From contig CAIVRE010000005.1 of assembly GCA_903908245.1 (NCBI GenBank), forward strand, positions 1-43,234: a stretch of DNA of 43,234 nt, read 5' to 3'. Origin of the DNA: Candidatus Omnitrophota bacterium. Lineage in GTDB: Bacteria > Omnitrophota > Gorgyraeia > Zapsychrales > Fredricksoniimonadaceae. The translations under genes and the position numbers were made by a program. Positions within the stretch are counted from its first letter, which is position 1. Each line of letters begins with the position of its first letter. Positions 6,001 through 22,469 of the stretch are shown in pieces. The notes below the pieces were generated by a model, which was given only the letters and a program-made list of their open reading frames with translations, had not been told where the DNA came from and ran no database searches.

Positions 6001-7510
6001 TTCGCACCTGAGCGGGTTGATCACAAGCTCTTTATTGGCGGCGGTCAGGGCGGCGCGCGGGTTTTACAGGAATGGCCCTGTGCCTGCCCTGGAAATAGGA
6101 GGCCTGCCCTTATTTTATGCCGTGAAGTTAAGGGAGGAGTTCTCTGCCGAGGAGGTTCCTCTTGCGGTCATTGATGTCGGCGATTTGCCTCCGGTCGCGT
6201 TAAAGAGCGCTCAGCAAAAGGGCATCCGCTTTTTTTCCACACCTGTTCAGGCTATTGATCCGCAGGTGTTCCTGCCTCAAGTGAAGTTCGTGTACGGCAT
6301 TTTTGTCCTGGAGTATATACAGGACAGGCCGGCGATGTTTGAAAGGCTTAAAGAGGTCACAGCCGAAGAGACCCGGTTCTTTTTTATCCTGCATCATATC
6401 GATTCTCCGTTCGTCCAGGATACGGAGTACCAGAAAGCCTTCATTCAGACGAATATTATCAGGTTGAAGCTTGCGATCAGGGGTGTTAACGGGCAGTTTC
6501 TTCGTCTGGATGATGCCGCGGCTTTGGAGAAAGAGCTCCGGGTTCTTGAAGTTCATCAGGCGCGCGTACAGAATATGCGGCCGTCACATGACAATGTTTT
6601 TGCTTCGCCGGCCGCGGTGCGGGAGTTCTTCGCGGGCGCGGGGTTCGAGGTCATTTCCCTGGAAGCCGTTCATTATGATGGCGTGCCGTATGCCTGGGCC
6701 GTGCAGTTCGCAAAGGGGGGCCGCGCTGCAAGTCCGGAGCCTGCACTTGATCCTGTTGATCCCGGCATGGCCGAGGACATTCTCCTGGAGCATTTTTTTG
6801 TTGACGGGCGGCTGAATATCGATGTTTTCGGAAGATTGCTGACGGATACGGCCAGGTCCATTGCCCGCTGGTCCGGGATCACGGATTCGCCGGACGATAT
6901 CCGGATCGTTTTTTGCGGCAGCATGCGTTATCTGGCGGATGAGCGGTCCTGGGTCCCGCTCGATCAGGTGGCCGACATCGATGTGCTGGATATTCATCCC
7001 CGGGGGATGACGGCCATTGCTTTTCGGGAGGTTTTCCATGAGGCTGTCGACAGGTTGTGGGAAAGGAGCATTGCGTCGGAGGATGGATTGAAGGTATTCC
7101 TTGAAAGTGTTATCGACCGGATGAACCAGCCGGATGAATATTTCATGTTCCCTGGAGAGTTGAATGTGCAGGAAAGGCTGGATAACTTGCGCCGGTATGC
7201 TTTAAAGCGGGAAAACTGGCAAAAGGGGACCGAACACGGGATCCTGATGATGAGGGTCAAGGCGAGGCTCCAGATCCTTTATTATCTCGCGTCCGGCAAG
7301 CTTCGTGAGCGTTATGTGGTTTATCGTGATGAGTATCTGGCCGCGTCGGCGGATACGGCAAGGCTTGCCCGGTTACTGGCAAGGATGTCCGGGGATGCCG
7401 GGGCCAAACGGCTTGTCGGCCGATTGCGCGATCCAAAGAACGATCCGGAACTGTTGTCCAGGATCAACAGGAACATTTCCTGGCTGGCATTAGAAGATCC
7501 GCAGGAGTAA
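2..7510 (+). CDS. Giant multidomain membrane protein, 5' end outside the window
   Basis: The frame is open from base 2, and the ATG at 65 has no ribosome binding site, so the gene very probably starts upstream. At least 2,500 residues are visible. Counting from the ATG at 65, residues about 60-340 hold roughly eight hydrophobic segments. A mostly soluble stretch follows, with a possible GNAT-like segment near 800-910 (weak), two VHE-type motifs near 1033 and 1505, and a glycine-rich AGGADVS segment near 1095 that resembles degenerate SAM-methyltransferase folds. Two hydrophobic segments lie near 1855-1920. A class I methyltransferase-like region covers about 1960-2220 (EIGG near 2008, then a VYGIFVLEYI strand), followed by a helical tail. 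I cannot assign a function. Very large proteins of this build are something I associate with Omnitrophota. Existence as a gene is near certain; the domain reading is tentative. Confidence 0.9.
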   Translation, partial: KERYINAHPPQDRQYIAVLYSMIMLSPGFFRAFAVHSLNNRFWRQRGVGAPGMMRAGGIFIAFVDALFENFDKRNRLTPLGVCKLSFAAGLMVWTMTIGEGWGWKAAAFGAVSILAVFLRNVIPDMLAAHGRSLKKWKWPSIRRMKLANDFFCNATLALFLVAAKNYIMDPAFARIFPAGGLFMALHVAWDIVLIAVLDTVMTGWARAARRFPRFAVDRIFVVNLMVIGSVYAIFGTVCGLGWLALLVSSSAQARVFSSFGWAGLLGSLAAAAYIQRKIVVARRYSRVAGTPEIPGIYQKTAFLLWSVSGVFAFAWLASAFPVPVMGFFAALGWTGSFVASAVALFFINKIVGALMYGRADWEVMKKIWRNPEATAVPRYLKKRIRSAEQRLEGLVSARPLVLLPGLSKALGKPFYVKWGADREGGSHRIRGVLLILTDILNKYISDLSVRRISRNRVHVPRGLEVVTASDGSYGIAVIDALRRLAAVYPERYPAFADEIKRIRAVIFLPSDVPDYVRARYAGSSGADCEFRAVEGGLAQAMEAAKGYVHDHADQAVFLPHCDGTVLDGNALVGREIFRELRQKGQLDDGRKVSLLFPVGLGDYAQVPAGFKMGPGAPGQLMAVAVQPADASAFIRWLITNRPQNNHGLQPLATLKGQAVVADGFKDHPDPLAVRMAERVLDAAVIVDPEKTFQAAAVLDKEMAGICKAGVDGTGATTLLAAFHDLDDFVPEFRQSDAVVLLVPEENLDPEVRSYLDRVDTSLLLKDAGVVQRDFRKEQLRAARREREIRQYVFHVAAKIREFQREGYGFKEEVLRDPAGQEGFYWLILKDGRSTGGYIRAQVSDGNVRLHELYPHLPAHNGYGQALVSLFLLTGNRWAGADYSAETASLSACQMHRRMSIFSLKFRSAWASHWLITGRIPVLSGWSLQRLAAVMSLAFGNSRPGEDQHRAKPDNGLPVDRVERERAILRQVAGNVLLTHAEGAYLIMALQEAQALAKDENVAAKLVAMQDMETRAGPTVDAMPDLWGIVRERILDLNRALLDPSRRTELLLTLVHEASVMAYPANTDDQNEALARRFVFDARPVQAGLLHDHYIRADMAVCREVNPGHEPLTAVYLAGGADVSNYLLSLDAAKGYFLARYGWWWKIGRKILEECFYGDTAAFLAEHLAPDYHSDKYLNGYSNTIRVTARRQIVAAFAAELMAAGVDMRSVRVVQEGRYPGVTFRWQYHGRAEKEYTIILVDTNIPRWKRYRSIFKANKVDVVYQRAAVGLPFEYRKKNNYMAGIGSCVGSGTVFVTDDSAFQWEEESVVDQGEHFPLKMEVVAVAEARELVQPIFELRGFSRLPSARYGWDVTVRRSPLVALRAKLRELEIRRSAYFPPGLPGQSEAQRVYRLEYYDRYIAAVSERICDLTGERDLVRISDDMNEGDPSWARPGISLQRARARFQALANGGFQGSRRGKSNPWAKRAVRWFIAAYPAHKQQVRSMFRQMVLYSGPDDEELLYAGNNEDPVRPVIFIATNDPLDLEQKLVHELAALIFQDHIRALAVTRSWSLDRRKALGSRSQERSLTDTNVILAGERFGGRAFIRASEAGDCLAVIRGFRGHDFNFDRFRFKIETLLVHEGPNAEVVRASAARMLIELRQAVFNRRPSSAFGISGDVSGMFDTVIKHNSPLAPLSAVHLLGANVILPGEKEFDMVLEKAGKPWTVQENKFTLSLGKFYQQVIGIDDNKKAHLEILVNKELYQGVRNIVYFGEHDNGYVLRAVAAFLARRPDIRPAIDIYFNRGVAVKFSLEQVREFLSDRKVLEMASKEPHSRVSPYLSIAHSKAGELIRKKIEQIKGDKFDVIIAVSNPRGSDLKALRVFRAGPAVRRAGNIRRAGLGIISAFGGLLAASNAAAAEVNGPLPLASVSDPGGSCTVAGVILVATVLLITVIGLWLVKGRAPWNGQEKSDGAMPAGAQDRQAQKHWRQAWKQRVTDIAPTTNWSVAFNDPSRPAIDPCASHLSGLITSSLLAAVRAARGFYRNGPVPALEIGGLPLFYAVKLREEFSAEEVPLAVIDVGDLPPVALKSAQQKGIRFFSTPVQAIDPQVFLPQVKFVYGIFVLEYIQDRPAMFERLKEVTAEETRFFFILHHIDSPFVQDTEYQKAFIQTNIIRLKLAIRGVNGQFLRLDDAAALEKELRVLEVHQARVQNMRPSHDNVFASPAAVREFFAGAGFEVISLEAVHYDGVPYAWAVQFAKGGRAASPEPALDPVDPGMAEDILLEHFFVDGRLNIDVFGRLLTDTARSIARWSGITDSPDDIRIVFCGSMRYLADERSWVPLDQVADIDVLDIHPRGMTAIAFREVFHEAVDRLWERSIASEDGLKVFLESVIDRMNQPDEYFMFPGELNVQERLDNLRRYALKRENWQKGTEHGILMMRVKARLQILYYLASGKLRERYVVYRDEYLAASADTARLARLLARMSGDAGAKRLVGRLRDPKNDPELLSRINRNISWLALEDPQE

Positions 7511-9911: not shown

Positions 9912-12611
9912 ATGGCCGCAGACAATCCTTTTTATTCGTTCCTTCCTGACGGGATCACATTCCGTTCTTCGCTGGCCATGGGTTCGCGCCTCATTTATGC
10001 CCCGCTGTGCGGTATCGACGGCGCGGGGATCAAGTCATCGATCACCCCATTCATGGGCGGAGACATCAAGGTCGACAAGCTGTCGTATGTCAACAAGCCT
10101 GCGTCGCGGGAGGACCTGCGCTCTCCGTCGAGAAATTTGTTCATCGCGGTCGAGAGTCATGGTTTCTTTTCGTTCGCGGAAGATCCGCTGGGGGGCGATC
10201 ATGTCGAGTCCGGCCAGCTGTGGCACAAGGTTGTCCGCCGTATCCCGCGGTTCGGCCTTGAGGCCGAAGCCCTGAGCTTTGTCCCTGTTTCCGGCGAGAA
10301 GCTGGAGCTTACGCAGTTTACGGTACGCAATGTTTCAGGGGTTCCGGTCACCCTGACCGCAACAACGGCTTTTAACCTGTTCGGCCGCGCGTTGGCCAAC
10401 AAGCACGACCATGAGCATGTGACGGCCCTGCTTCATCGCGTTAGTCAGCTGCCCGAGGGCGTCCTGGTCGATCCTACCATGGCTTTTAACGAGGAGGGGC
10501 ATAAGGCTGCTCATTGTGTTTATTATGTGTTCGGCTGCACCGGCGATGGCCGCCTGGCGGCGGGATCGTTCCCGACCTTTGAGCATTTCTTTGGCGAGGG
10601 CGGCACGTTCGAACGCCCTTTGGCCATGCAGAGCGGCGTCGCGCCGCGCCTGTTCACCGAGGCCGAGCGCAACGGGCAGGAGGCGGTTGGCGCATTGCGG
10701 TTCGCGTCAGACACGCTTGGGCCCGGGGAAGCGTGCTCCTATATTGTTGCTGTTGGCGTGGGCCCGGACAGGGTAACGGGATTGGCCGAGTTTGCCCGGT
10801 TCACTTCGTCCGGGAAAGTCGGGGCTGCGCTAAAAAGCAATATTCATTTCTGGACAGCCAAGACATCGTCGCTGCTGTTCAGGCATTCCGATCCGGCTTT
10901 TACGTCCTGGATGCGCTGGGTGGCGCTTCAGCCTGTCTTGCGCCGTATTTACGGCTGTTCGTTCCTGCCGGACCATGATTACGGCAAGGGCGGCAAGGGC
11001 TGGAGGGATATCTGGCAGGATCTCCTGTCTCTTATCCTTATTGAGCCGGCGGAAGTGCGCGCCGCGCTCATCAACAATTTCGGCGGAGTGCGTATCGACG
11101 GGTCGAATGCCACCATTATCGGGCAGAAACCGGGGGAATTCATTGCCGATCGCAATGCCATCACCCGCGTATGGATGGATCACGGCGTGTGGCCTTTTAC
11201 GACAACGCAACTTTATATCGACCAGTCCGGCGATACCGCGTTCCTGTTCGAGCCGGCGCCTTATTTTTGCGACCCGCAGCAGTCGCGTTCGTTCGGGAAA
11301 GACGCGCACTGGACTTCGTCGTACGGCAATCAGCTTAAAGATAAAAAAGGCAATGTTTATCATGGGACCGTGCTGGAACATATCCTGGTCCAGCATCTGG
11401 TCCAGTTCTTCAATGTGGGTGATCATAATATCGCGCGGCTGGAGAGCGCCGACTGGAATGACGGGCTTGATATGGCCTTCAAGCATGGCGAGAGCGTGGC
11501 GTTCATGTCTTTTTATGCCGGGAACCTTTTGAAGATCGCCGATCTTCTGGAATCGGTTTGTCCGGCAGGCAATATCCGGACTGTCCGGCTGGCGGCGGAA
11601 CTGAAGTTGCTGCTGGATACTTTGTCTGTTCCCGTCGATTACAATGATGCCACGGCCAAGCGCACCAGGCTCTTTGACGGGTATTTCAAGGCGGTCCAAC
11701 CGGAGGTCAGCGGGGAGACGGTTGAGTTCCCTGTCACGGGGGTTGTCGCGGACCTGCGCAAGAAAGGCCGCTGGGCGTTCGAACATATCCGTGCGCGGGA
11801 GAAGGTTGTTATCGGTGAGGACCGCTGGTTCAACGGGTATTATGATAATGACGGGGTTCGTGTCGAGGGGGCCGTGGACGGCCGCGTGCGGATGACCCTG
11901 ACAGGGCAGGTATTCCCGCTGATGAGTGGGCTGGCGTCGAAGGATGAGGCCAAAGCCGTGGTGAAAGCGGTCGATCATTATTTAAAGGACAACGATCTCG
12001 GCGGGTATCGCCTTAACACCGACTTCGGGTTACGGATATATTTATCGATGGGCCGGGCGTTCGGCTTTGCGTTCGGCACCAAAGAGAACGGGGCGGTGTT
12101 CAGCCATATGGTCGTGATGTACGCTTACGCTCTTTATACGCAAGGATTGGCGCGCGAGGGGTACGATGTTTTGCGTTCGCTTTATACCATGAGCCGGGAC
12201 CCCGGCGCGCGTATCTACCCCGGGGTCCCGGAGTATTTTGACGCGTCAGGCCGCGGTATGTATCATTTTCTTACCGGTTCGGCGAGCTGGTATGTCCTTA
12301 CGCTTTTGACCCAGGCCTGCGGTATTCGTGGCGACAAAGGGGCCCTTGTATTGGCGCCGCAGCTGGTGGCGGAGGAGTTTGACGCCAGGGGTGAGGTGAG
12401 TGTCAGTTCCCAGTTCGCCGGAAAAACCGTTACCGTTGTTTATCGTAATCCTTCCAGGCTTGATGCCGGGGCATACCGTATCAAGGCGGTTTTGCTTAAT
12501 GGCGTCGATGTCCCCGATGCGGTCAATTGTGACGGAACAGCCCGGCTGGCCCGTGCGTTGTTCTCCCGGATCACCGGTATTGCCGAACTCCATGTCCTTC
12601 TGGCTTCGTAG
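9912..12611 (+). CDS. GH94-type glycoside phosphorylase
   Basis: This 899-residue protein looks like a GH94 inverting phosphorylase, an enzyme class that splits beta-glucosides with phosphate to give alpha-glucose 1-phosphate. An N-terminal beta-sandwich (about 1-310) leads into an (alpha/alpha)6 barrel with the family motif GGKGWRDIWQD near residue 358, the catalytic-acid motif D514-W-N-D-G, a RIYPG segment and an FLTGSASW segment near the end. There is no signal peptide, so it acts in the cytoplasm. The pattern reminds me most of 1,2-beta-oligoglucan phosphorylase (Listeria Lin1839 type), but cellobiose- or laminaribiose-type activity cannot be excluded from the sequence. The ABC sugar importer genes follow directly. 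No Shine-Dalgarno sequence is seen. A 12-bp inverted repeat (12194-12205 with 12220-12231) lies inside the coding sequence. Confidence 0.9.
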   Translation: MAADNPFYSFLPDGITFRSSLAMGSRLIYAPLCGIDGAGIKSSITPFMGGDIKVDKLSYVNKPASREDLRSPSRNLFIAVESHGFFSFAEDPLGGDHVESGQLWHKVVRRIPRFGLEAEALSFVPVSGEKLELTQFTVRNVSGVPVTLTATTAFNLFGRALANKHDHEHVTALLHRVSQLPEGVLVDPTMAFNEEGHKAAHCVYYVFGCTGDGRLAAGSFPTFEHFFGEGGTFERPLAMQSGVAPRLFTEAERNGQEAVGALRFASDTLGPGEACSYIVAVGVGPDRVTGLAEFARFTSSGKVGAALKSNIHFWTAKTSSLLFRHSDPAFTSWMRWVALQPVLRRIYGCSFLPDHDYGKGGKGWRDIWQDLLSLILIEPAEVRAALINNFGGVRIDGSNATIIGQKPGEFIADRNAITRVWMDHGVWPFTTTQLYIDQSGDTAFLFEPAPYFCDPQQSRSFGKDAHWTSSYGNQLKDKKGNVYHGTVLEHILVQHLVQFFNVGDHNIARLESADWNDGLDMAFKHGESVAFMSFYAGNLLKIADLLESVCPAGNIRTVRLAAELKLLLDTLSVPVDYNDATAKRTRLFDGYFKAVQPEVSGETVEFPVTGVVADLRKKGRWAFEHIRAREKVVIGEDRWFNGYYDNDGVRVEGAVDGRVRMTLTGQVFPLMSGLASKDEAKAVVKAVDHYLKDNDLGGYRLNTDFGLRIYLSMGRAFGFAFGTKENGAVFSHMVVMYAYALYTQGLAREGYDVLRSLYTMSRDPGARIYPGVPEYFDASGRGMYHFLTGSASWYVLTLLTQACGIRGDKGALVLAPQLVAEEFDARGEVSVSSQFAGKTVTVVYRNPSRLDAGAYRIKAVLLNGVDVPDAVNCDGTARLARALFSRITGIAELHVLLAS

Positions 12612-12795: not shown

Positions 12796-12812
12796 AGTTT
12801 TTGGAAGATCCT

Positions 12813-14117
12813 ATGTGCCCCGATCGCATCAAAATATCCCTGTTGATCATTTGCGGTATCTTTTGCTCCGGGGTCTTGGGCTGTTCCCAGCCTAAAAAGC
12901 CTTCCGGCCAGATCGAGGTCTGGCACTGGATGACCGACCGCCAGGACGCTTTCGAAGCCCTTGCCAGGAAGTACGAAGCCGAGACCGGCATCAAGGTCAA
13001 GTTCGACCTTTTCGCTCCCTCCGACGCTTACACCCAGAAGATCATTGCTGCCGCCCAGGCGGATGTTTTGCCGGATGTTTATGGCATCCTCGAGGAGAAG
13101 AAGCCAGTCCTTGCTTCTTTTATCAAGGCGGGTTTTGTAGCGGACCTTACCGAAGAGTTCCGGGCGGATAACGGCGCGTGGGAAACCGGGCTCTTTGCAA
13201 AAGCCGTTGATGTGAACCGTTTTGTGGCCGGGAATATCAACGGGATCAGGCCCGGCATTTACGGCGTGCCCCTGGATATCGGCAGTGAACAGATGCTTTA
13301 TAACAGGGCCCTGCTCAAGAAAGCAGGGATCACTAAAGTACCGGTGACATTCGCCGAGTGGCTTGCGGCGGTTGATGCCCTGCGGCGTGTCGGCATTGCC
13401 CCGTTCGTTTCGGGGTTCGGCGAGTTGTGGATGATCGATTGTTTCACGTCGAATTACGCGTTCAATATCATGGGTGAGCAAAAAGTGTTCGCCACTTTCC
13501 GCGGGGATGTCAAATATACCGATCCCGACTGGATCAGGGTCCTTGAAGTCGTCAGGATATTGCGCGACAAGGGGGCATTCATTGACGGCATTGTGACCAA
13601 AGGGAACAAGGTCGCCGAGCAGGATTTTGCGCTCGAGCGCGCGGCGTTCGCTTTCAACGGCGCATGGTCGGTCAATGTGTACCGGTCGATGAATCCGGGG
13701 CTTGATTATGGCGTGGCGCCTTTGCCGGCGTTGAATCCCTTGTCCCCGATGGTCTCCTGGGGCGGGGCGGAGTCGTCGTTTGTCATCAATAATGCATCCG
13801 TGAATAAAGGCAAGGCTGTCGCATTCGTGAAATGGCTGACCGCCAGGGAACAGCAGGTATTCCTGTTCATGAAGGTGAACAGCCTTCCGGTCAACCGTGA
13901 CGCAATGGCGGATATCCCGAAGAACCTGGCGGATTTTGCCAAAGCCATGGAGAGCAGCACCCATCCGAAGATCTGGCCTGTCAGCGAGGATCCGGTGGTC
14001 AGTGAGGCGTTCCTCAAGGGCATTCAGTCGATCATCATTGGTGAAAGTACGCCGTCGGCGGTGGCCGCGGAGGTCCAGAAGATCAAAGATCGCCAGATGC
14101 AAAAGGCCAAACATTAA
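12813..14117 (+). CDS. ABC transporter sugar-binding lipoprotein (family 1)
   Basis: This 434-residue extracellular solute-binding protein has a lipoprotein signal (hydrophobic run ending G-V-L-G-C, lipid Cys near residue 24), a QIEVWHW first strand, a Y-G-V-P-L-D-I-G central segment and an F-A-F-N-G-A-W segment typical of MalE/family-1 binding proteins. GGAAG at 12803-12807 sits five bases before the ATG at 12813, favouring it over the TTG at 12801. In this diderm setting it would be tethered in the periplasm and hand oligosaccharide to the two permeases that follow. Ligand is inferred only from the adjacent GH94-type phosphorylase. Confidence 0.88.
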   Translation: MCPDRIKISLLIICGIFCSGVLGCSQPKKPSGQIEVWHWMTDRQDAFEALARKYEAETGIKVKFDLFAPSDAYTQKIIAAAQADVLPDVYGILEEKKPVLASFIKAGFVADLTEEFRADNGAWETGLFAKAVDVNRFVAGNINGIRPGIYGVPLDIGSEQMLYNRALLKKAGITKVPVTFAEWLAAVDALRRVGIAPFVSGFGELWMIDCFTSNYAFNIMGEQKVFATFRGDVKYTDPDWIRVLEVVRILRDKGAFIDGIVTKGNKVAEQDFALERAAFAFNGAWSVNVYRSMNPGLDYGVAPLPALNPLSPMVSWGGAESSFVINNASVNKGKAVAFVKWLTAREQQVFLFMKVNSLPVNRDAMADIPKNLADFAKAMESSTHPKIWPVSEDPVVSEAFLKGIQSIIIGESTPSAVAAEVQKIKDRQMQKAKH

Positions 14118-14149: not shown

Positions 14150-15067
14150 GTGGATACTCGAGCGTTGGCGATAAAATTAAAACCCCTGGATGCGTTCAAG
14201 AATTTCCTCTTTGTTCTGCCTGCTGTTCTGATCTTCCTGATCTTTTATATTTACCCGTTCTTTGAGCTCTTTCGTTTGTCGCTGTATCAGTGGCAGGGCA
14301 TCGGGCCGCAGATATTCGTGGGTTTGCAGAATTTCCAGGAGCTTGCCGGCGACAAGGTCTGGTGGGATTCCGTGGGGCATGCCGGATATATTACGTTGAT
14401 CGCGCTTACGTTCCAGAACGTGCTGGCTTTCGCCCTGGCCCTGGCCTGTGACCGCGAGATCCGCATGAAGCGGTTTTACCGGGTCGTTTTTTTCATTCCG
14501 CCGGTGCTTTCCGAAGTGGTGGTGGGCCTTCTCTGGAACTGGATATTGAATTCCGGTACGCAGAACGGCCAGCAGATCGGCTTGCTGAATCATTTCCTCG
14601 TTCAGAGCGGCCTGCCGCAGCTGGTCCACGGCTGGCTTTCGGACCCGAAGACCGCGCTTTCGTGCATTGCCATTGTCCATTCCTGGAAAGGGTTCGGCTG
14701 GGGGTTCATTATGCTTCTGGCCGGACTGCAGACGATCGACCGCCAGCTTTATGAAGCGGCAAAGGTGGACGGGGCGGGGGGGTGGAGCGCGTTCTGGAAC
14801 GTGACCATTCCGATGATGATGCCGGTGATCATGGTCGTGGTCATCCTGACGGTCCTTGGGTCCATGCAGGTGTTCGTGCTGATCCTCTCCCTGGTCAACC
14901 AGGGGCTGGTTTATCATACGGAAGTCCCGGTCACCCGTATCCTGAGTTCGATGCACGAGACCCATCAGTTCGGTTATGCGTGCGCCCAGGCGGTGATCCT
15001 CGGTGCGATCCTGGTCGCGGTCGCGTTCTTTCTGAAAAAAATGTCCAGTTATATGAAACAGGTATAA
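14150..15067 (+). CDS. ABC sugar transporter permease, MalF/UgpA type
   Basis: The 305-residue inner-membrane protein has six hydrophobic segments and the permease EAA loop (YEAAKVDGAG near residue 204), where the ATPase docks. The start is GTG at 14150; no ATG is available and the ribosome site is weak. It lies 32 bases after the binding-protein gene and two bases before the second permease. No ATP-binding subunit is encoded nearby, so the pair probably uses a shared MsmK/UgpC-type ATPase from elsewhere in the genome, a known habit of this transporter class. Confidence 0.9.
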   Translation: MDTRALAIKLKPLDAFKNFLFVLPAVLIFLIFYIYPFFELFRLSLYQWQGIGPQIFVGLQNFQELAGDKVWWDSVGHAGYITLIALTFQNVLAFALALACDREIRMKRFYRVVFFIPPVLSEVVVGLLWNWILNSGTQNGQQIGLLNHFLVQSGLPQLVHGWLSDPKTALSCIAIVHSWKGFGWGFIMLLAGLQTIDRQLYEAAKVDGAGGWSAFWNVTIPMMMPVIMVVVILTVLGSMQVFVLILSLVNQGLVYHTEVPVTRILSSMHETHQFGYACAQAVILGAILVAVAFFLKKMSSYMKQV

Positions 15068-15069
15068 GA

Positions 15070-15921
15070 ATGAAATTATTCCGCAACCGTTATATCGCCG
15101 AGCTCGCGGCCAAGAATGCCGTGGTCCACGTCTTTCTGATGATCGTGACGGTGTCTTGCTTGTTCCCGATCTTCTGGATGGTCCGCTCGTCCCTGATGAC
15201 GAATGCCACTATTTTTACCGATCAGTCATTGTTCCCCAAAGAGGTCCATTGGCAGAATTACCTGGAGGCCTGGACCAAGGGGAATTTCGCGGTTTATTGC
15301 CTGAACAGCATTATTTATACTGTTTCCGTCGTGTTCGGGATCGTGGTGGTGGCCTCCATGGCGGCGTTCGCTTTTTCCCGTTTGCATTTCTGGGGAAGGG
15401 ATGTGATCTTTTATATGTTCGTGGCCGCGATGATGATCCCTCTTCCGGGCAGTTTCGTTCCGCTGTTCGTGATGATGAACAAGATGCATCTGATCAATAC
15501 GCGCTTGGGCTATATCCTGTGCATGATCAATGTCGGGTTGTCCCTGAGCATTCTGCTCCTGAAGACTTTTTTTGACAAGATGCCGTCCGATCTCGAGGAT
15601 GCCGCACGCATTGACGGGTGCAATCGCCTGCAGATCTGGTGGCATGTGGCGCTCCCGCTGGCCCGTCCGGCGCTGGCGGTCGTTGTGATCTATAATTCGC
15701 TGAATGTCTGGAACGAGTATATCCTGGCGTCGCTTCTTTTGAATGACAAGGACCTGATGCCTTTGCAGAAAGGCCTCATGGTCTTTAACGGGGCTTACCT
15801 GACGGATTATCCTGTGCTGATGGCCGGGCTCACCATGACGGCGCTGCCGATCATTGTTGTCTACCTGATGATGCAGAAACATATTGTTAAAGGGCTCTCT
15901 TCCGGAGCGATCGTTGGATAA
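15070..15921 (+). CDS. ABC sugar transporter permease, MalG/UgpE type
   Basis: The 283-residue inner-membrane permease begins at the ATG at 15070, two bases after the previous stop; the open frame continues upstream but only as overlap with the first permease. It has a first membrane helix near residues 17-38, five more hydrophobic segments, and the EAA loop D-A-A-R-I-D-G-C near residue 177. It forms the heterodimeric channel with the product of 14150-15067. The following exported hydrolase gene starts about 20 bases downstream, so the whole block is likely one transcript. Confidence 0.9.
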   Translation: MKLFRNRYIAELAAKNAVVHVFLMIVTVSCLFPIFWMVRSSLMTNATIFTDQSLFPKEVHWQNYLEAWTKGNFAVYCLNSIIYTVSVVFGIVVVASMAAFAFSRLHFWGRDVIFYMFVAAMMIPLPGSFVPLFVMMNKMHLINTRLGYILCMINVGLSLSILLLKTFFDKMPSDLEDAARIDGCNRLQIWWHVALPLARPALAVVVIYNSLNVWNEYILASLLLNDKDLMPLQKGLMVFNGAYLTDYPVLMAGLTMTALPIIVVYLMMQKHIVKGLSSGAIVG

Positions 15922-15940
15922 AAAAACATTACTGATCGGC

Positions 15941-18259
15941 ATGACTTGTATGCGAAAAAACCGTCTTGATCTCACGAGTGCAATCCTGGCCATCCTTTTT
16001 GTTTGCGGGAGCTCCTTCTCCCCGCTGCTCTTGCCGGCGTTCGCCGTAACAGGGCAGGACCCTTATTCGAAAAGCCTGGAAGAATTATTGAACATGTCCT
16101 GGGCGGCGTCCAGTCACGGGGATTATGCGGAGCTGGAGAAGGTTGTTGCGGCGGTCCTCTCCCGGCATGAGCAGGAGGCCATGGCCCAGAGCACAGGCCT
16201 GGCGTCGTTCCCGCTGAGGGACAAGGTGGACCAGGTCAAGACCATGAATAATGTGGCCACGGTCCTTTTCGTCAGGGCGGAGGCGTTGATGCATCAGGGC
16301 CGTAATGATGATTCGATCGCGGCGTTCGAACAGTTGATCAGGGACTATCCTTATGCCCAGTCCTGGGATGCCAGCCGCGGTTCATACTGGTCTATCGCCG
16401 AAAAGAGCAAGGAAAGCATCAATACGATGAAGGGCGTCGAGAGCGGAGAGACCCGTCAGGAAGCTCCGGCGACAAAGCCGTCCCTGGCCATGCCAGGGAA
16501 AGATCCGGTGATCGACTATGCCAAGTACGGTGTTTTCTCCGGGATCGGCACCAAAGATTACAAGTATACTCCGACGAATCCGAATGTCCTGGCGGTGGCG
16601 GTCGGAGAGGGGATCTATCCGAACACCGGCAACAGTATCCGGGATCCTCATTATAAGGAAGCCTTTCAGGCCGGCCGCCTGAACGGAACGCATTGGGATT
16701 TTGTGAATACCCGGGACCTTGAGGCCGCGTATTTCAAGTGGTCTACCGCGGCGGAAGCTCCGGGGGTGAAACTTTATTATACGGCCCTGATCTTTGAGAA
16801 AGCGGGGATGCTGCTGGAGGCGATCAAGGCGTATCATGCACTGATCGTTCAGTTCCCGCGTGCCGTCGGGATGACATATTGGCAAACACCCTGGTATCCC
16901 GCACAGGCCGCGGTAGGCAAGATCAAGAACATCCTTCGGCAGAACCCGTCGCTTGGCCTGGAGTATATCGGAGGGAAGATCCAGGTCATTAATGGCGATG
17001 ACAATGACATGACGAACGATGTTTTTATTATCTGGCCGGGAGAGATCCGTAAAGTGGTCGGCAGCGGGGCGGCTGCCAAGCGAAAACTGGGGAAGGTGGT
17101 CCGTTCCCTGGGCGGCAAGAAGGCGAGCCTCAGCCAGTACGAGAGCGGGGACTGGCGTATGTTCGTTAACGGGAAGCCGTTCATGATCAAGGCGATCACC
17201 TATATGCCCACCAAGGTCGGTCAGAGCCCGGATAAAGGGACGATCGAGCCCTGGATGATGCAGGATGGAGATCACAACGGAAAACCCGACAGCCCCTATG
17301 ATTCCTGGGTGGATAAAAATCGCAATAATGTCCGGGATGCCGATGAGCCGGTGGTGGGTGATTTTCAGTTAATGAAGGAAATGGGCGTTAACGCGATCCG
17401 TCTTTATAATATGCCGAATACCATTGATAAAAAAGTCCTGCGCGATCTGTATGACCGTTACGGGATCATGGTGATCATGGAGGATTTTCTGGGGAAATAC
17501 GCCATTGGCTCGGGAGCGGATTGGGCGACCGGGACGGATTATGAGAATCCTGTCCATTTGAAGAATATGATGGCCGAAGTGGAGCGCATGGTCAACGAGT
17601 ACAAGGACGAGCCATATATTTTGTTTTGGCTCCTTGGCAACGAGAACAATTACGGTGTTGCATCCAATGGCGACAAGAAGCCGGAGGCGTATTACAAGTT
17701 CGTTAATACGGTTGCCAAGCGTGTTAAAGAGCTGGATCCGGACCGTCCGGTCGCTATTTGTAATGGAGATATCCTTTTCCTTGAAAAGTTCGCGAAGAAC
17801 GCGCCGGATGTTGATATTTTCGGCGCCAATGTTTATCGCGGGGATTATGGTTTCGCTTCTTTTTGGGACGAGGTCCGCCGCGTGGTCAACAAGCCGGCGT
17901 TTATTACCGAGTATGGCGCGCCGGCGTATTCCAAGCAGGTGAGCCTGGACGAGGCGGAGGAGCAGCAGGCGGCGTATCATCGCGGGGCCTGGCTGGATAT
18001 TATGGCCAATTCGACGGGATTTGCCGAGGGCGATGGCAACGCGCTGGGCGGGATCGCGTTTGAATGGATGGATGAATGGTGGAAGAATTACGAGCCTTCC
18101 AGGCATGACACCAAAGCGGATGTTGTCGGGCCTTTTGCCGGGGGTTATTATTTTGAAGAGTGGTTCGGGATCATTGGCCAGGGGGACGGGAAAAGCAGCC
18201 CGTTCCTTCGTCAGCCCAGGAAAGCGTATTATTTATATAAAAGTTTGTGGAATAAATAA
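15941..18259 (+). CDS. Exported clan-A glycoside hydrolase with N-terminal repeat modules
   Basis: The 772-residue protein has a signal peptide ending near A35 (L-P-A-F-A). Residues about 45-162 and about 262-335 are helical repeat modules related to those of the protein at 18410. Residues about 390-772 form a TIM-barrel hydrolase domain of the GH2/GH5/GH72 type: the acid/base motif is L-G-N-E568-N-N and the nucleophile motif is I-T-E657-Y-G-A-P, 89 residues apart as expected for clan A. A D-x-D-rich loop (DGDHNGKPDS) near residue 445 may bind calcium. It presumably trims or transglycosylates a glucan outside the inner membrane to feed the importer. ATG at 15950 is an alternative start; neither has a strong ribosome site. 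The exact GH family is not assigned. Confidence 0.82.
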   Translation: MTCMRKNRLDLTSAILAILFVCGSSFSPLLLPAFAVTGQDPYSKSLEELLNMSWAASSHGDYAELEKVVAAVLSRHEQEAMAQSTGLASFPLRDKVDQVKTMNNVATVLFVRAEALMHQGRNDDSIAAFEQLIRDYPYAQSWDASRGSYWSIAEKSKESINTMKGVESGETRQEAPATKPSLAMPGKDPVIDYAKYGVFSGIGTKDYKYTPTNPNVLAVAVGEGIYPNTGNSIRDPHYKEAFQAGRLNGTHWDFVNTRDLEAAYFKWSTAAEAPGVKLYYTALIFEKAGMLLEAIKAYHALIVQFPRAVGMTYWQTPWYPAQAAVGKIKNILRQNPSLGLEYIGGKIQVINGDDNDMTNDVFIIWPGEIRKVVGSGAAAKRKLGKVVRSLGGKKASLSQYESGDWRMFVNGKPFMIKAITYMPTKVGQSPDKGTIEPWMMQDGDHNGKPDSPYDSWVDKNRNNVRDADEPVVGDFQLMKEMGVNAIRLYNMPNTIDKKVLRDLYDRYGIMVIMEDFLGKYAIGSGADWATGTDYENPVHLKNMMAEVERMVNEYKDEPYILFWLLGNENNYGVASNGDKKPEAYYKFVNTVAKRVKELDPDRPVAICNGDILFLEKFAKNAPDVDIFGANVYRGDYGFASFWDEVRRVVNKPAFITEYGAPAYSKQVSLDEAEEQQAAYHRGAWLDIMANSTGFAEGDGNALGGIAFEWMDEWWKNYEPSRHDTKADVVGPFAGGYYFEEWFGIIGQGDGKSSPFLRQPRKAYYLYKSLWNK

Positions 18260-18287
18260 TCTCCGGAAGGGTGGCGGAAAGTAAAAA

Positions 18288-18317
18288 TTGGCAAAACATC
18301 AAAAGATGTGGCATACT
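18288..18317 (+). promoter_or_regulatory. Promoter with an inverted repeat in its spacer
   Basis: TTGGCA at 18288-18293 and CATACT at 18312-18317 are 18 bases apart. The spacer holds ACATC (18296-18300) and GATGT (18305-18309), a five-base inverted repeat around AAAA, in a position where a repressor would block RNA polymerase. It would allow the repeat protein, lipoprotein and later genes to be expressed apart from the importer. Confidence 0.5.
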
Positions 18318-18409
18318 GTTCTATACAAAAAGTCGGGGGGTATGTCCTTCGTTTTGGGTTTTGGTCATGTGGTCACTTGTTGAAATAATCTAAAAACCAG
18401 GAGGGTGTA

Positions 18410-19336
18410 ATGAAAAAGTGGGTTCTACTATCAGTCATGTTTTGTTTTACGGCAGCAGGCGTTGCCCAGGCGCAGGCACAGGCTCCGGCAGGAGCTGCGG
18501 CGGCGGCAGTATCCGCTCCGGTGGCGGTTGCAAAGGCATCTCCGTATAATTTCGGCGATTTTCGTTCAACGACTTTGACGACCAAGGCGTGGAAAGCTCT
18601 TGAGGACAAGAATCTCGAAGGAGTCCTGGTTTATACCAATAAGTGCATTGAGCTTTATGCAGAGAAGGCTCGTGTGATGCAGTCCGAGCTGAAGGAGTAT
18701 CCGTCCGGTGATGACCAGAAGATCTTTGGTTTCTGGGCTTTAAATGATGTGGCAACAAGCATTTTTATCCAGGGGGAAGCATACCGTAAGGCCGACAATA
18801 TAGAAGAGGCCAAGAAGGCGTTCAATCGCGTGATCAGTGAGTTTGGTTTTGGCCAGGCATATGATCCGGCCAACAAGGCTTTCTGGAAGCCGGCGGATGC
18901 GGCAAAAGAAAAGCTGGATATGATCTCAAAAGGGCTGGACCTGGATTTTGGGGATATGAAATCCAGTTTCATTACGTCAAAGGCATGGGCGGCTCTTGCC
19001 AAGAAGGACCTTAAGAGTGTCCAGGCGTATGTGAACAAGAATCTCGATCTTTATGGTGCCCGCGCAAGAGAAATGCAGGCGTCCCTGAAAGAGTTCCCCT
19101 GGGAATCCCAGGAGAAGATCTATTCTTTCTGGGCTCTAAATGATGTTGGCACATCGCTTTTTGTTCTTGGGCAGGCGTATCGCAATGCCGACATGAAGAC
19201 GGAAGCTATCGCTGTTTTTAAACAGCTGGTCAAGGACTACGGGTTTTCCCAGTGCTGGGATCCCCAGGGCTGGTTCTGGAAGCCTGCGGAAGCGGCAGAA
19301 CAGCAGATCATTGAACTTGAAGCGGCAAAAAAATGA
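18410..19336 (+). CDS. Exported protein with two copies of a helical repeat module
   Basis: The 308-residue protein has a signal peptide ending near residue 22 (A-Q-A) and an Ala/Pro-rich linker. Two modules of about 115 residues (58-172 and 189-303) follow; each runs through K-A-W-x-A-L, L-Y, M-Q-x-x-L-K-E, F-W-A-L-N-D-V-x-T-S, an A-Y-R-x-A-D TPR-like turn, F-G/Y-G-F, and ends in W-K-P-A-x-A-A. Related modules occur at the N-terminus of the upstream hydrolase. An AGGAGG at 18400 gives strong translation, suggesting an abundant protein. Its stop overlaps the next start (ATGA), so it is coupled to the lipoprotein. I do not know this family; a scaffold or glycan-binding role in the periplasm is inference. 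Confidence 0.85.
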   Translation: MKKWVLLSVMFCFTAAGVAQAQAQAPAGAAAAAVSAPVAVAKASPYNFGDFRSTTLTTKAWKALEDKNLEGVLVYTNKCIELYAEKARVMQSELKEYPSGDDQKIFGFWALNDVATSIFIQGEAYRKADNIEEAKKAFNRVISEFGFGQAYDPANKAFWKPADAAKEKLDMISKGLDLDFGDMKSSFITSKAWAALAKKDLKSVQAYVNKNLDLYGARAREMQASLKEFPWESQEKIYSFWALNDVGTSLFVLGQAYRNADMKTEAIAVFKQLVKDYGFSQCWDPQGWFWKPAEAAEQQIIELEAAKK

Positions 19337-20013
19337 ACGTTGTTAAGTTTTCAGGCCTTTGTTTACTTCTGACGGCTGTCTGGGCGTGTTCCAGCCAGCC
19401 GTCAGGAGATGTTGTTTCCAAGGGTATCCAGAAGGAATTCGGTTCGGTCAACGAAGTCCCTGTTACGGATCCAAAGTCCTTTCAGCAGCCGTTCACGCCG
19501 TTTATTATTTATCAGGATAAGGCCTCCAGGAATCGTTTCACTCCATCCGGATATATGCCGACCGGCGAGTGCATTGCGCTTGATGACGGATGGCAGTATG
19601 ACCCCAGGGAAGGCAAGACATCGATCCGCGTGGTGTATGACGTTTCATGCTCCAAGCAGGGCCGTAAATGGGCCGGTGTTTACTGGCAGAATCCGGCTGA
19701 TAACTGGGGTGACCGCAAGGGCGGTTACAATCTTTCCGGCGCGACCCGGGTGACATTCTGGGCAAAAGGCGAGCTCGGAGGCGAGCGTATTGAAGAGTTC
19801 CGTGTGGGGGGGATCGGCGCGAACAGCCTGTACCCGGATTCCGACTCCGCTTCGATCGGGCCGGTTATCCTGACCAACCAGTGGAAGCAGTATTCGATCG
19901 ACCTTCGCGGGAAAGACCTTTCGTATATCAGCGGTGGTTTTGCCTGGGTGGCCAACGTTGACTCCAATCCGCATCACTGCACGTTCTATCTTGATGACAT
20001 GCATTTTGAATAA
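19333..20013 (+). CDS. Lipoprotein with a probable carbohydrate-binding beta-sandwich
   Basis: The 226-residue protein has a short lipoprotein signal (hydrophobic run ending A-V-W-A-C19; Trp at -2 is unusual). The rest is beta-rich with many aromatic residues and ends in the Y-L-D-D-M-H-F-E strand that commonly closes galactose-binding-like or CBM-type jelly rolls, often with calcium at the paired Asp. A run of W-A-G-V-Y-W and F-W-A-K-G supports a glycan-binding surface. The start overlaps the stop of the repeat protein by four bases. Together with the exported hydrolase, it looks like part of a surface or periplasmic glycan-handling set. Confidence 0.75.
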   Translation: MNVVKFSGLCLLLTAVWACSSQPSGDVVSKGIQKEFGSVNEVPVTDPKSFQQPFTPFIIYQDKASRNRFTPSGYMPTGECIALDDGWQYDPREGKTSIRVVYDVSCSKQGRKWAGVYWQNPADNWGDRKGGYNLSGATRVTFWAKGELGGERIEEFRVGGIGANSLYPDSDSASIGPVILTNQWKQYSIDLRGKDLSYISGGFAWVANVDSNPHHCTFYLDDMHFE

Positions 20014-20044: not shown

Positions 20045-20073
20045 TTGAGTCCGTGTCTTTCCTTTGTTATATT
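20045..20073 (+). promoter_or_regulatory. Promoter of the coiled-coil/LacI unit
   Basis: TTGAGT at 20045-20050 and TATATT at 20068-20073 are separated by 17 bases. The leader to the ATG at 20110 would be about 29 bases and includes a GGAG ribosome site seven bases before the start. Confidence 0.6.
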
Positions 20074-20109
20074 CTAAATGTTTCCTATATAAACAAATGG
20101 AGAGACCGC

Positions 20110-21462
20110 ATGTCACAGATCATAAAGCAGAGTATTGTTATACTCATAATCCTGTTGGTTCTTAGCGTCGGGGTGGCTGTTATGACGCTGCTTCAGAAAA
20201 TGGGGCTTGAGAAACAGAACCAATATCTGCAGGGACAGGTCAGTGACTTCGAAACCAAGTCGCGCGGTCTTGACCAGCAAGTCAAAAAATTGACGGAGGA
20301 ATCCCAGGGGCTGCGCAAGGACATTGAACAGAAGGTCCGCGATATCGACGCTGCCAACAAGAAATTTGAGGACGCCCGCCGCACCAGCGACAAGGCTTCC
20401 GACGATCTTTCCCGCGCCCAGCGCGACCGTGCCGATCTTGATTCGCGCATGGCGACTCTCCGTCGCGAACGCGATGACCTGATGGACAAGCTCAAGAATC
20501 GTCCCGTTGAAGAAAAAGTTGTCGAGAAGGAAAAGATCGTTTATCGCGACCGCGTGGTCGATGCCAGCGGGAATCCGGTTGATCCGAATGCGCCGCCCGT
20601 TGTTCCGGCCGCTACCGCGACTGCTGCCGTTCCGGCTGCAGTTGTGCCGCAGACCAATGTGGTCATTGAGAATACGGCCAACGAGGAATATTGGGCCGGC
20701 ATTATGCGCCAGAAGGCTTCGCTGGAGATCGAACTGGCGGATGTGAAAAAGAAACTTTCGGAAAAAGATATCAAGGCGGAAGAGATGAAGAAGGTGACAT
20801 CCGACCTTGAGATCGAGATCGGCCGCCTGAAGAATGAGCGTGAAGAGATCATCCGCAAGATCAAATACGGCGATGACCTGGCCGACAGCCTGTCCATCGA
20901 ACTGGCCCGTGCGCGCAACGAGAGCAAGATCACCGCTGACCGTGCGGACAGGGTGAGTGCCGAGAACCAGGGCCTGCGCAGTGATATCAAGCAGCTTTCA
21001 TCGACCAAGGTGGCGCTGGAGAAGAGCATCGCCCGCCTGACCGACGACAAGTCCGGGGTGGAGAAAAAACTTCTTGAGACCGAGAATATCATTCAGGGGC
21101 GGATCGACGAGATCTGGAAGATCAAGAAGGATGTTGATACGCGCTTTGACATGACAAGGAACAATTCCGGCGAGGTGGAGCTTGCGCCGATCGTGGTCAA
21201 TGCGGCATCCGCTCCGGTAAAGACGGCTTCGGCCAATGCGCCGCGCCGGGCCGGTAATGTGGTGAGCGTGAACGAGGAAAACAATTTTGTGGTCATCGAC
21301 CTTGGTGAGGCGGATAATATCCATAATGGCGATATGTTCAAGATCTATCGCGGCAAGGACCAGATCGGGACTGTTGCGGTGATCCAGGTGCGCAAGGATA
21401 TTTCGGCGGCCGATATCAAGCAAAAAACCGCGGCCTTCAGGGCCGGCGACCAGGTCCGTTGA
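20110..21462 (+). CDS. Membrane-anchored coiled-coil protein with a C-terminal beta-barrel domain
   Basis: The 450-residue protein starts at the ATG at 20110 (GGAG seven bases upstream). One membrane helix at about residues 7-30 is followed by two long heptad-rich coiled coils (about 35-145 and 200-345). They are split by a Pro/Ala linker containing a V-V-x-K-E-K-I-V-Y-R-D-R segment. A small C-terminal domain (about 385-450) reads V-V-S-V-N-E-E-N-N-F-V-V-I-D-L-G and then G-D-M-F-K-I-Y-R-G, resembling the small beta-barrel domains that end many Omnitrophota and planctomycete envelope proteins. It probably spans part of the periplasm as an elongated structural protein. A direct role in sugar uptake is not shown; the link is co-location with the LacI-type gene, whose start overlaps its stop. 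Confidence 0.8.
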   Translation: MSQIIKQSIVILIILLVLSVGVAVMTLLQKMGLEKQNQYLQGQVSDFETKSRGLDQQVKKLTEESQGLRKDIEQKVRDIDAANKKFEDARRTSDKASDDLSRAQRDRADLDSRMATLRRERDDLMDKLKNRPVEEKVVEKEKIVYRDRVVDASGNPVDPNAPPVVPAATATAAVPAAVVPQTNVVIENTANEEYWAGIMRQKASLEIELADVKKKLSEKDIKAEEMKKVTSDLEIEIGRLKNEREEIIRKIKYGDDLADSLSIELARARNESKITADRADRVSAENQGLRSDIKQLSSTKVALEKSIARLTDDKSGVEKKLLETENIIQGRIDEIWKIKKDVDTRFDMTRNNSGEVELAPIVVNAASAPVKTASANAPRRAGNVVSVNEENNFVVIDLGEADNIHNGDMFKIYRGKDQIGTVAVIQVRKDISAADIKQKTAAFRAGDQVR

Positions 21463-21464
21463 AC

Positions 21465-22469
21465 GTGGGAAATAAACGCGTTAACATCAAGGATGTCGCG
21501 AAGCTTGCCAAAGTTTCGATAACGACTGTCTCGCGTGTCATCAACAAATTCCCTTCTGTCAACAAGCGCAATATCCAGCGTGTTGAAGCTGCCGTTGCCG
21601 AGCTGAAATATCGTCCGAATGTGAGTGCCCAGCGCCTGGCCAGCGGTGCCAATAACGCGGTGGGGCTTGTGATGCCGGGTTATCCCGGCATTTTTCATTC
21701 TTTTTTCGCCATCGAGATCATCCGCGGTGTCGGCCAGGCCTGTGAAGCGCTCAAGCTCGACATGGTGTTCCATATTTCCGACGGTGTTAATCCGTTGAAT
21801 GCCAGTTATATGGGGGGGATCATTTTTGCGGATATCATCGAGAACCGCAAGCAGCTTGATGACGCGCTCGACCGCCATATTCCTTGTCTGGTCATTAATA
21901 ATGTCGTGCAGGATGTGGATGTCAGTTATATCGCCGTGAACAATCTCAAGGGCGGGGATATTGCGGCCAAGTATCTGACCGGCCTTGGGCATAAGCGTAT
22001 CGCCACCATTACCGGGAATGTCAAGACGCAGTCGGGGTTTGACCGTTTTGACGGGTTCATGAAGGGCATGTATGATGCCGGGGTAGAGATCCCCAAGGAA
22101 TATGTGTACCGGGGCGATTATTCACGCCGCAGCGCCCGGCAGGCGGCCGAATTCTTTTTTTCGATGAAAGAGCGTCCCACGGCCATTTTCGCGCAAAGTG
22201 ATGACATGGCGCTGGAGGTTATGGCGGTTGCTTTTGAGATGGGCATTCGCATCCCCGAGGATGTTTCCATTATCGGGTTTGACGACAGCCCCCAGGCGTT
22301 ATACGGGCCTGTCGGGCTTACGACTGTGCGCCAGCCGGTCTTTGAAATGGCCGAGAAGTCGGTACGGATCCTTAATGAAATGATCAATGGCAAGCCGGAG
22401 CTCCGTTTTCGTACGGCGATGGACCCTGACCTTGTTATCCGCGATTCCTGCGCCGCTCCTTCTGCGTAA
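21465..22469 (+). CDS. LacI/GalR-family transcription regulator
   Basis: The 334-residue protein has a classic LacI N-terminal helix-turn-helix (D-V-A-K-L-A-K-V-S-I-T-T-V-S-R-V-I-N) and hinge (A-Q-R-L-A-S-G), followed by the periplasmic-binding-like sensor domain ending in G-F-D-D-S-P and T-V-R-Q-P. Two starts are possible: GTG at 21465, or TTG at 21459, which overlaps the previous stop; an AGG at 21452-21454 fits either. It probably controls the carbohydrate locus in response to an imported or processed sugar. None of the promoters in the locus carries an obvious LacI-type operator; the one sequence of that type in the window is at 27251-27262. Confidence 0.9.
   Translation: MGNKRVNIKDVAKLAKVSITTVSRVINKFPSVNKRNIQRVEAAVAELKYRPNVSAQRLASGANNAVGLVMPGYPGIFHSFFAIEIIRGVGQACEALKLDMVFHISDGVNPLNASYMGGIIFADIIENRKQLDDALDRHIPCLVINNVVQDVDVSYIAVNNLKGGDIAAKYLTGLGHKRIATITGNVKTQSGFDRFDGFMKGMYDAGVEIPKEYVYRGDYSRRSARQAAEFFFSMKERPTAIFAQSDDMALEVMAVAFEMGIRIPEDVSIIGFDDSPQALYGPVGLTTVRQPVFEMAEKSVRILNEMINGKPELRFRTAMDPDLVIRDSCAAPSA

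Follow-up and report, generated by a model that had tools for sequence, protein, structure and literature searches.

Two adjacent genes in the DNA analyzed here, a 43,234-nucleotide (nt) stretch that we call the window (contig CAIVRE010000005.1 of Candidatus Omnitrophota bacterium, assembly GCA_903908245.1), encode exported proteins that share a module of ~125 residues. In the predicted structures, this module is a tetratricopeptide repeat (TPR) scaffold with a non-TPR, tryptophan-rich hairpin. One of the two proteins is a hydrolase, HYD, and the other, MOD, consists of two modules. We think it slightly better than even that this is an accessory module for the breakdown of β-1,3-glucan of the laminarin type, which would bind β-1,3-glucan in cis and in trans. 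The module probably represents a new type of glucan-handling domain. Its sequence conservation and its repeated proximity to β-1,3-glucan enzymes of different glycoside hydrolase (GH) families carry this reading.

Module copies in HYD and MOD

The features of the two genes are as follows.

15884..18259, + strand: HYD, a 791-amino-acid (aa) open reading frame (ORF) with a signal peptide, module copy H1, a linker region with half-module H2, and a clan GH-A TIM barrel; the likely true start is an ATG near 15941 (this start and the signal peptide were assigned by visual inspection)
16079..16432, + strand: module copy H1, HYD residues 66-183
16763..16933, + strand: half-module H2 (a helix pair, then the hairpin and a helix), HYD residues 294-350
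18410..19336, + strand: MOD, 308 aa, a likely signal peptide (judged by eye) followed by two modules
18545..18931, + strand: module copy A, MOD residues 46-174
18854..18892, + strand: signature hairpin of copy A, a degenerate form of Q-x-W-D-P-x-G-W-F-W-K-P, from conservation over 191 modules (model strands 150-152 and 157-159)
18941..19324, + strand: module copy B, MOD residues 178-305
19250..19288, + strand: signature hairpin of copy B, Q-C-W-D-P-Q-G-W-F-W-K-P

A module profile of 130 positions, from whose construction H1 and H2 were excluded, scored 195 bits on copy A, 201 bits on copy B, and 69 bits on H1 (independent E value [i-E], 7.8e-20). When pairwise scores were compared with those of 1000 shuffles, none of which equalled the real score, z was 56 for A/B, 23 for B/H1, and 16 for A/H1. 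A preliminary description of this DNA had proposed two copies in MOD and one clear copy at the N terminus of the hydrolase, and both proposals are borne out; the modules lie where it had placed them, but they measure ~125 to 130 residues rather than 115.

The weaker second hydrolase copy of that description is related to the others but is only half a module. H2 scored 13.8 bits (i-E, 1.1e-2) with the window sequence alone, and its pairwise z values (1000 shuffles) were 4.9 with B (0 of 1000 as high), 4.1 with A (5 of 1000), and 3.1 with H1 (11 of 1000). Profile-profile alignment (hhalign) gave 95 to 96% against A and B and 32% against H1, while the best of 50 column-shuffled decoys reached 11.5% against B. 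Among the full-length HYD orthologues of the named loci (three more are truncated at contig ends), H1 is present in 30 of 30, and H2 was found at an i-E of <1e-3 in 19 of 30, starting at profile position 45 to 70. We regard H2, the least certain copy, as convincing at the family level only, as the C-terminal half of a module (last TPR helix pair, hairpin, and helix). These comparisons establish three full copies and a half-copy as genuine. An own-genome paralogue (G000:C31:16262-18112) aligns to HYD only from about residue 195 and spans the H2 region and the barrel without H1; because this match covers the H2 region, H2 belongs with the hydrolase core. Another own-genome paralogue (G000:C14:101418-102563) matches the HYD barrel only.

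The module tree (96 rows, 128 columns, midpoint root) gathered the A and B rows into one clade (99/93), a few A and B rows being interleaved, and placed H1 and its orthologues from other orders in a separate clade (100/98). This supports an origin of the MOD modules by duplication within MOD; with a midpoint root only and many forks open, the tree also indicates that H1 is an old, separate lineage. Recent copying from MOD to HYD, or the reverse, is rejected by this tree. Thus, of the duplication and fusion envisaged earlier, the A/B duplication stands and a fusion to the hydrolase exists, but H1 was not derived from the neighboring MOD.

In the AlphaFold2 model of MOD (mean predicted local distance difference test score, 88.7; predicted template modeling score [pTM], 0.68), each module runs through four main helices and a short β-hairpin to a closing helix. 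In the model of HYD (82.2; pTM, 0.78), H1 shares this order and H2 corresponds to its final part. A Foldseek search of MOD against the Protein Data Bank (PDB) gave no match at an E value of ≤0.001, the best being TPR chains; for a single module, the best VIA-align match was the TPR domain of YbgF (PDB code 2xev; Z = 11.8; root mean square deviation [RMSD], 1.8; 94 aligned), and TPR chains predominate among the fold matches listed. Pfam TPR_6 (PF13174) scored 43.5 bits in MOD and 34.7 bits in HYD (cut-off, 26.3), which assigns the helix pairs to the TPR family. On MOD, H1, and a single module of locus L110, only TPR models of Pfam passed their cut-offs, with no model covering the whole module, and all NCBIfam matches to the module were below cut-off, among them a weak YbgF match (3.6e-4, far under its cut-off). 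The helix pairs are like those of TPR repeats (TPR_6 and YbgF/CpoB, 2xev), whereas the module is a 125-residue unit whose long second helix, conserved tryptophan hairpin, and closing helix lie outside the TPR model matches.

Conservation was assessed over 191 modules from eight contexts, leaving out matches of <40 bits, matches covering <90 profile positions, and identical rows. The hairpin is constant as W-D-..-G-W-F/Y/W-W, with the last Trp at 100% and the Asp at 98%, and helix 3 opens with an Asn-Asp pair conserved at 98/94%. The most conserved positions (MOD A numbering) include W61, A87, N112-D113, A134, W151-D152, G156, W157, F158, and W159; many of these lie in the hairpin, and W159 occurs in all modules.

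Distribution and linkage to β-1,3-glucan enzymes

The module profile (E ≤ 0.001) matched 228 of 384 sampled Omnitrophota genomes, a count that retains matches with E values of 1e-4 to 1e-3; elsewhere, matches in this range were dropped as generic TPRs (two genomes in the set from the order of Aporhodopirellula, seven in the Verrucomicrobia class sample, and two and one in two other sets). There are named loci in Omnitrophota, Auribacterota, Planctomycetota, Verrucomicrobiota, Chloroflexota, and SAR92/SAR86; L064 bears the title Elusimicrobia and L072 simply "bacterium." The module can stand by itself, form tandems of 2 to 8 copies, or be part of endo-β-1,3-glucanase-type enzymes from more than one family; the maximum of eight copies lies in one 1112-aa Auribacterota ORF (L104:7063-10401). 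Within the class of the window but in other orders, three genomes (L123-L125) have a fused H1 as their sole module match, and L128 has both H1 and MOD. Two further kinds of Omnitrophota protein carry the module: a 3233-aa frame from a metagenome-assembled genome (L119:1-9699), which combines module matches with a GH72-like glucanosyltransferase domain, and proteins of 839 to 841 aa with a C-terminal module (L117:2-2521 and L117:7942-10467), of which the one scanned had no other Pfam match.

Auribacterota aside, the majority of sampled loci place the module in a cluster with β-1,3-glucan enzymes. Outside Omnitrophota and Auribacterota, a β-1,3-glucan enzyme lies within 1666 bp of the module (median, 224 bp) or is fused to it in 31 of 38 loci, several of which share ancestry and do not represent 31 independent events. 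The enzymes counted were GH158, GH17, GH128, GH149, or a HYD homologue. Among loci fetched after the idea had been formed, 20 of 24 have such an enzyme. The order of neighbors varies (GH158 divergent with LacI between, or module and GH158 co-directional), and the GH17 and GH128 fusions are separate architectures. Within clan GH-A, endo-β-1,3-glucanase activity is known in GH17, GH128, GH148, and GH158, according to the portion of PMC7157763 available to us; the module is fused to or beside three of these.

In Aporhodopirellula, the GH beside the single-module gene belongs to GH158 (9oro, 2.9e-96). Eight Planctomycetota and Verrucomicrobiota genomes (3.9 to 9.5 Mb) each contain one module match and one strong GH158 match (E < 1e-130), adjacent in all eight. 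Across the order of Aporhodopirellula, 13 of 197 genomes match the module (11 after dropping two at ~1e-4), in a search that yielded from several to >100 first-look candidates per genome and scored at most 22. GH158 (E ≤ 1e-30) occurs in 27 of the same genomes, and a strong module together with GH158 occurs in 8, adjacent in 8 of 8. The Fisher p value of this co-occurrence is 5.7e-6; when G398 and G400, which prompted the test, are left out, it is 1.6e-4, in each case uncorrected for relatedness. In two of the three genomes with a module only, the module is joined to a GH128-type domain; the third has a divergent module (L133) with no β-1,3-glucan enzyme gene in the 14 kb examined. The two fusions (L134/L135) match Glyco_hydro_cc at 2.4e-44 and 8.1e-45, and one matches PDB 6uaq at 2.4e-24; we take the PDB entries matched by these fusions to be GH128.

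The pattern recurs in more distant bacteria. In a class sample around a Verrucomicrobia genome, 20 of 237 genomes match the module (12 at E < 1e-36). Of the ten strong loci newly added from it, nine also carry GH158 within the stretch examined, and the tenth, L165, has GH149; a divergent module pair in G1100 (L170 and L171) has neither. A neighbor of ~1130 aa is present in 8 of the 38 loci, and the one tested (L131) is a GH149 β-1,3-oligosaccharide phosphorylase (6hq6, 4.4e-254) adjoined by an MFS_2 sugar transporter. Chloroflexota provide two GH17-SH3-module fusions (L118/L120; that of L118 was assigned to GH17 by a PDB match at 4e-17, and the Pfam GH17 match was just below cut-off in both), a cluster of module, hydrolase, and CBML, a lipoprotein-like protein introduced below (L172), and a locus without an enzyme (L173). 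Gammaproteobacterial L174 has two GH17 genes (Pfam GH17 at 8.4e-12 for one) and GH149, and L121 and L122 have no such enzyme; in Phycisphaerae, L116 combines the module with CBML and a GH17-like gene (Pfam 1.3e-4, below its threshold; PDB 1.3e-5), and L102 has no such enzyme. Directly 5' of each Chloroflexota GH17-SH3-module gene is a gene whose TIR-domain product matches the module weakly at its C terminus (L118:1428-2729 and L120:6343-7602).

The hydrolase barrel and the window operon

The remaining features of HYD and of the genes around it are as follows.

9912..12611, + strand: GH94, laminaribiose-phosphorylase-like (PDB 6ggy; Pfam GH94)
12801..14117, + strand: SBP, sugar-binding protein of an ATP-binding cassette (ABC) transporter (Pfam SBP_bac_1, 1.2e-29)
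14150..15067, + strand: ABC permease 1 (Pfam BPD_transp_1, 9e-17)
15064..15921, + strand: ABC permease 2, start judged by eye (Pfam BPD_transp_1, 3.5e-19)
17114..18256, + strand: (βα)8 barrel of HYD, GH158-like, clan GH-A (profile and Foldseek)
17642-17644 and 17909-17911, + strand: putative acid/base E587 and nucleophile E676 of HYD
19333..20013, + strand: CBML, lipoprotein-like, 226 aa, recurring with the module; no Pfam family
20053..21462, + strand: COIL, coiled-coil protein of the conserved operon
21459..22469, + strand: LacI-family regulator (Pfam LacI, 1.6e-16; Peripla_BP_3, 1.8e-32)

As a single sequence, HYD matched a GH2 glucuronidase in the PDB (1.1e-8) slightly better than GH158 (1.3e-7), while the HYD family profile placed GH158 first (1.7e-15 and 3.8e-14; GH2, 2e-10). 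The six best Foldseek chains are all GH158, remote at 16 to 17%, and VIA-align Z scores are tied at 25 to 27 among GH2 (highest), GH157, GH158, and GH5. All nine aligned sequences, four of the HYD type and five from GH158, share the acid/base G-N-E and the second Glu. GH158 (BuGH158, 6pal; GH158(Pro), 9oro) is thus the closest profile and Foldseek match, with both catalytic Glu residues conserved; HYD differs from it in the N-terminal H1 and H2 and in having, in the model, no separate strand-rich domain past the barrel. BuGH158 has an Ig-like domain after its barrel, as described in the accessible part of PMC7157763. Beyond residue 727, the HYD model contains a single strand (775-778) and a single helix (780-790), and its VIA alignment to 9p26 ends at residue 313 of ~404 of that chain. 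Since the model leaves no room for an Ig-like domain, we file HYD as GH158-like only. In four relatives, ORFs of 21,496, 17,411, 13,934, and 4,839 aa (G037:C16, G007:C15, G045:C12, and G004:C73) contain a match to the HYD barrel (residues ~568-767).

The GH94 protein matched laminaribiose phosphorylase 6ggy at an E value of 1.1e-255 (854 bits), and the next PDB match scored 63 bits, which puts it by sequence much nearer laminaribiose phosphorylase than other GH94 activities; a role in cyclic β-1,2-glucan metabolism was set aside on the same margin (~790 bits). Read from GH94, HYD, SBP, the two permeases, and LacI, the operon would serve β-1,3-glucan use, and we hold the link of this operon type to β-1,3-glucan to be very likely. 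The order GH94-SBP-permeases-HYD-MOD-CBML-COIL-LacI-MnmG is conserved, entire or in part, across the named Candidatus Omnitrophota contigs. HYD lies immediately 5' of MOD (≤400 bp, same strand) in 32 of 39 Omnitrophota two-module loci (L062-L099 and L107); it is 5.9 kb from MOD in L080 and was not found in the stretch examined at L069, L070, L076, L077, L096, and L097. CBML follows MOD within 700 bp on the 3' side in 33 of the 39, and its homologues accompany the module across phyla (L116, L172, L104, L123, and L124), that of L116 being fused to a GH17-like domain. The candidacy of CBML as a known carbohydrate-binding module (CBM) was rejected: two short CBML proteins scanned had no Pfam match, and the fused homologue of L124 matched CBM_4_9 at 0.014, below cut-off. 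Elsewhere in the window, a 2481-aa ORF (65-7510) has a pyridoxal phosphate-enzyme domain (residues 377-723) as its sole Pfam match at E ≤ 0.01, with weak, sub-cut-off NCBIfam matches.

Proposed function and alternatives

The aromatic residues of the hairpin, with the Asn-Asp pair, may bind β-1,3-glucan chains; direct binding by the module is, in our estimate, about an even proposition. Fused copies (H1 and the GH17 and GH128 fusions) would then keep the enzyme on its substrate as CBM-like anchors, and stand-alone proteins such as MOD could trap or retain glucan, or oligosaccharides from it, close to the enzyme and transporter. For this cell, we envisage cleavage of the glucan by the GH158-like HYD, import of oligosaccharides through the ABC system, and splitting of laminaribiose by GH94, under regulation by LacI. 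Like a CBM, the module is a noncatalytic domain fused to glycoside hydrolases (H1 in HYD, L118/L120, and L134/L135).

Several observations weigh against this proposal. The conserved aromatics could be structural, the fold matches TPRs at a middling Z (11.8 over 94 residues, 2xev), and TPRs usually bind proteins. Seven of the 38 loci (L102, L121, L122, L133, L170, L171, and L173) have no β-1,3-glucan enzyme in the stretch examined, and the genomes of L121 and L122 have no GH158 match. None of four Auribacterota loci (5 to 19 kb each) matched GH158, GH17, GH128, GH149, GH94, or HYD queries, and the same six queries found nothing in Omnitrophota L069 (at a contig end), L070, L076, L077, L096, L097, and L117; the module thus also turns up at loci without glucanase genes, particularly where it has expanded. 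The 24 and 44 module matches in Auribacterota genomes G411 and G412 exceed the needs of one glucan locus. Finally, GH158 can do without the module, since 19 of the 27 GH158 genomes in the 197-genome set lack a strong one.

The co-assembly that the preliminary description had raised would make the modules a protein scaffold, binding each other (H1 with A or B) or the enzyme. The TPR fold, the presence of the module in both adjacent gene products, the placement of MOD directly after HYD, and tandem arrays of up to eight copies all suit such a scaffold. Yet the eight Planctomycetota and Verrucomicrobiota genomes with a separate GH158 gene have a single module match, which leaves that module without a partner module; in three Omnitrophota genomes sampled from other orders, H1 is fused but MOD is absent; and the module motif stays constant while the enzyme family changes. 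Partners thus appear to have the substrate in common more than an enzyme surface. Because partners differ while the substrate and the W-D-x-x-G-W-F-W hairpin persist, we favor a binding module over an enzyme-docking scaffold, which we consider unlikely, at roughly a one-in-four level of belief. Less probable still is an assembly factor for export or the envelope, a TPR chaperone in the manner of YbgF/CpoB or BamD with the task of folding or placing the β-glucanase or the CBML lipoprotein. It would explain why YbgF is the best single-module fold match and gives a weak NCBIfam match, and it fits Auribacterota L104, where four CBML and two LacI homologues accompany the module with no glucanase match; a permanent accessory domain, however, better suits the fusions within mature enzymes (H1, GH17, and GH128), and the non-TPR hairpin is among the best-conserved parts. 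As for generic TPR repeats, alike by convergence and near glucanases by chance, TPR_6 matches the helix pairs and H2, as a half-copy, scores weakly in the window sequence, but the profile spans helices and hairpin over ~125 residues with E values reaching 1e-55, only 13 of 197 genomes match it, and linkage to glucanases is far above chance. Profile comparison, which had been proposed as the check for unrelated TPR segments, makes A, B, and H1 one family; the generic reading is refuted for these copies and is very improbable overall.

The binding module that we favor can be compared with known systems. SusD has TPR helices; it was absent among the fold matches listed for MOD, which excludes nothing. 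Like the SusD-like and SGBP-B proteins of Bacteroidota β-1,3-glucan loci, as presented in the accessible portion of PMC7157763, MOD is a noncatalytic exported partner of a GH158-type enzyme, but the module protein is far smaller, and the module loci scanned have ABC or MFS_2 transporters. The C-terminal domain of VvGH17, in the available text of PMC9026390, is likewise a small Trp-containing accessory domain on a GH17 β-1,3-glucanase; it is a predicted β-sandwich with demonstrated laminarin binding, whereas our module is mostly α-helical and its glucan binding putative. Identity of the two was set aside on the predicted β-sandwich. A literature search found no description of the module, which is weak evidence of novelty because most subscription papers fall outside its coverage, and the Omnitrophota paper PMC10066038 contains none of the terms glucan, glycoside hydrolase, tetratricopeptide, TPR, ABC transporter, or phosphorylase (matched at word start).

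More broadly, with a confidence that falls just short of even, we propose a previously undescribed family of TPR-scaffold β-1,3-glucan-binding modules, a helical counterpart of CBMs, which would be common to unrelated laminarinase systems, in fused and free exported forms, in at least six phyla (Omnitrophota, Auribacterota, Planctomycetota, Verrucomicrobiota, Chloroflexota, and Pseudomonadota). To our knowledge, little is known of laminarin capture by bacteria outside Bacteroidota. Laminarin is a major marine storage glucan, according to the part of PMC7104365 available. If the proposal is true, a small domain that accompanies laminarinases of several families and is recognizable by its sequence signature could be used to mark β-1,3-glucan loci in phyla not yet cultured and would offer a candidate new binding-module family, and it suggests a substrate for a conserved Omnitrophota operon.

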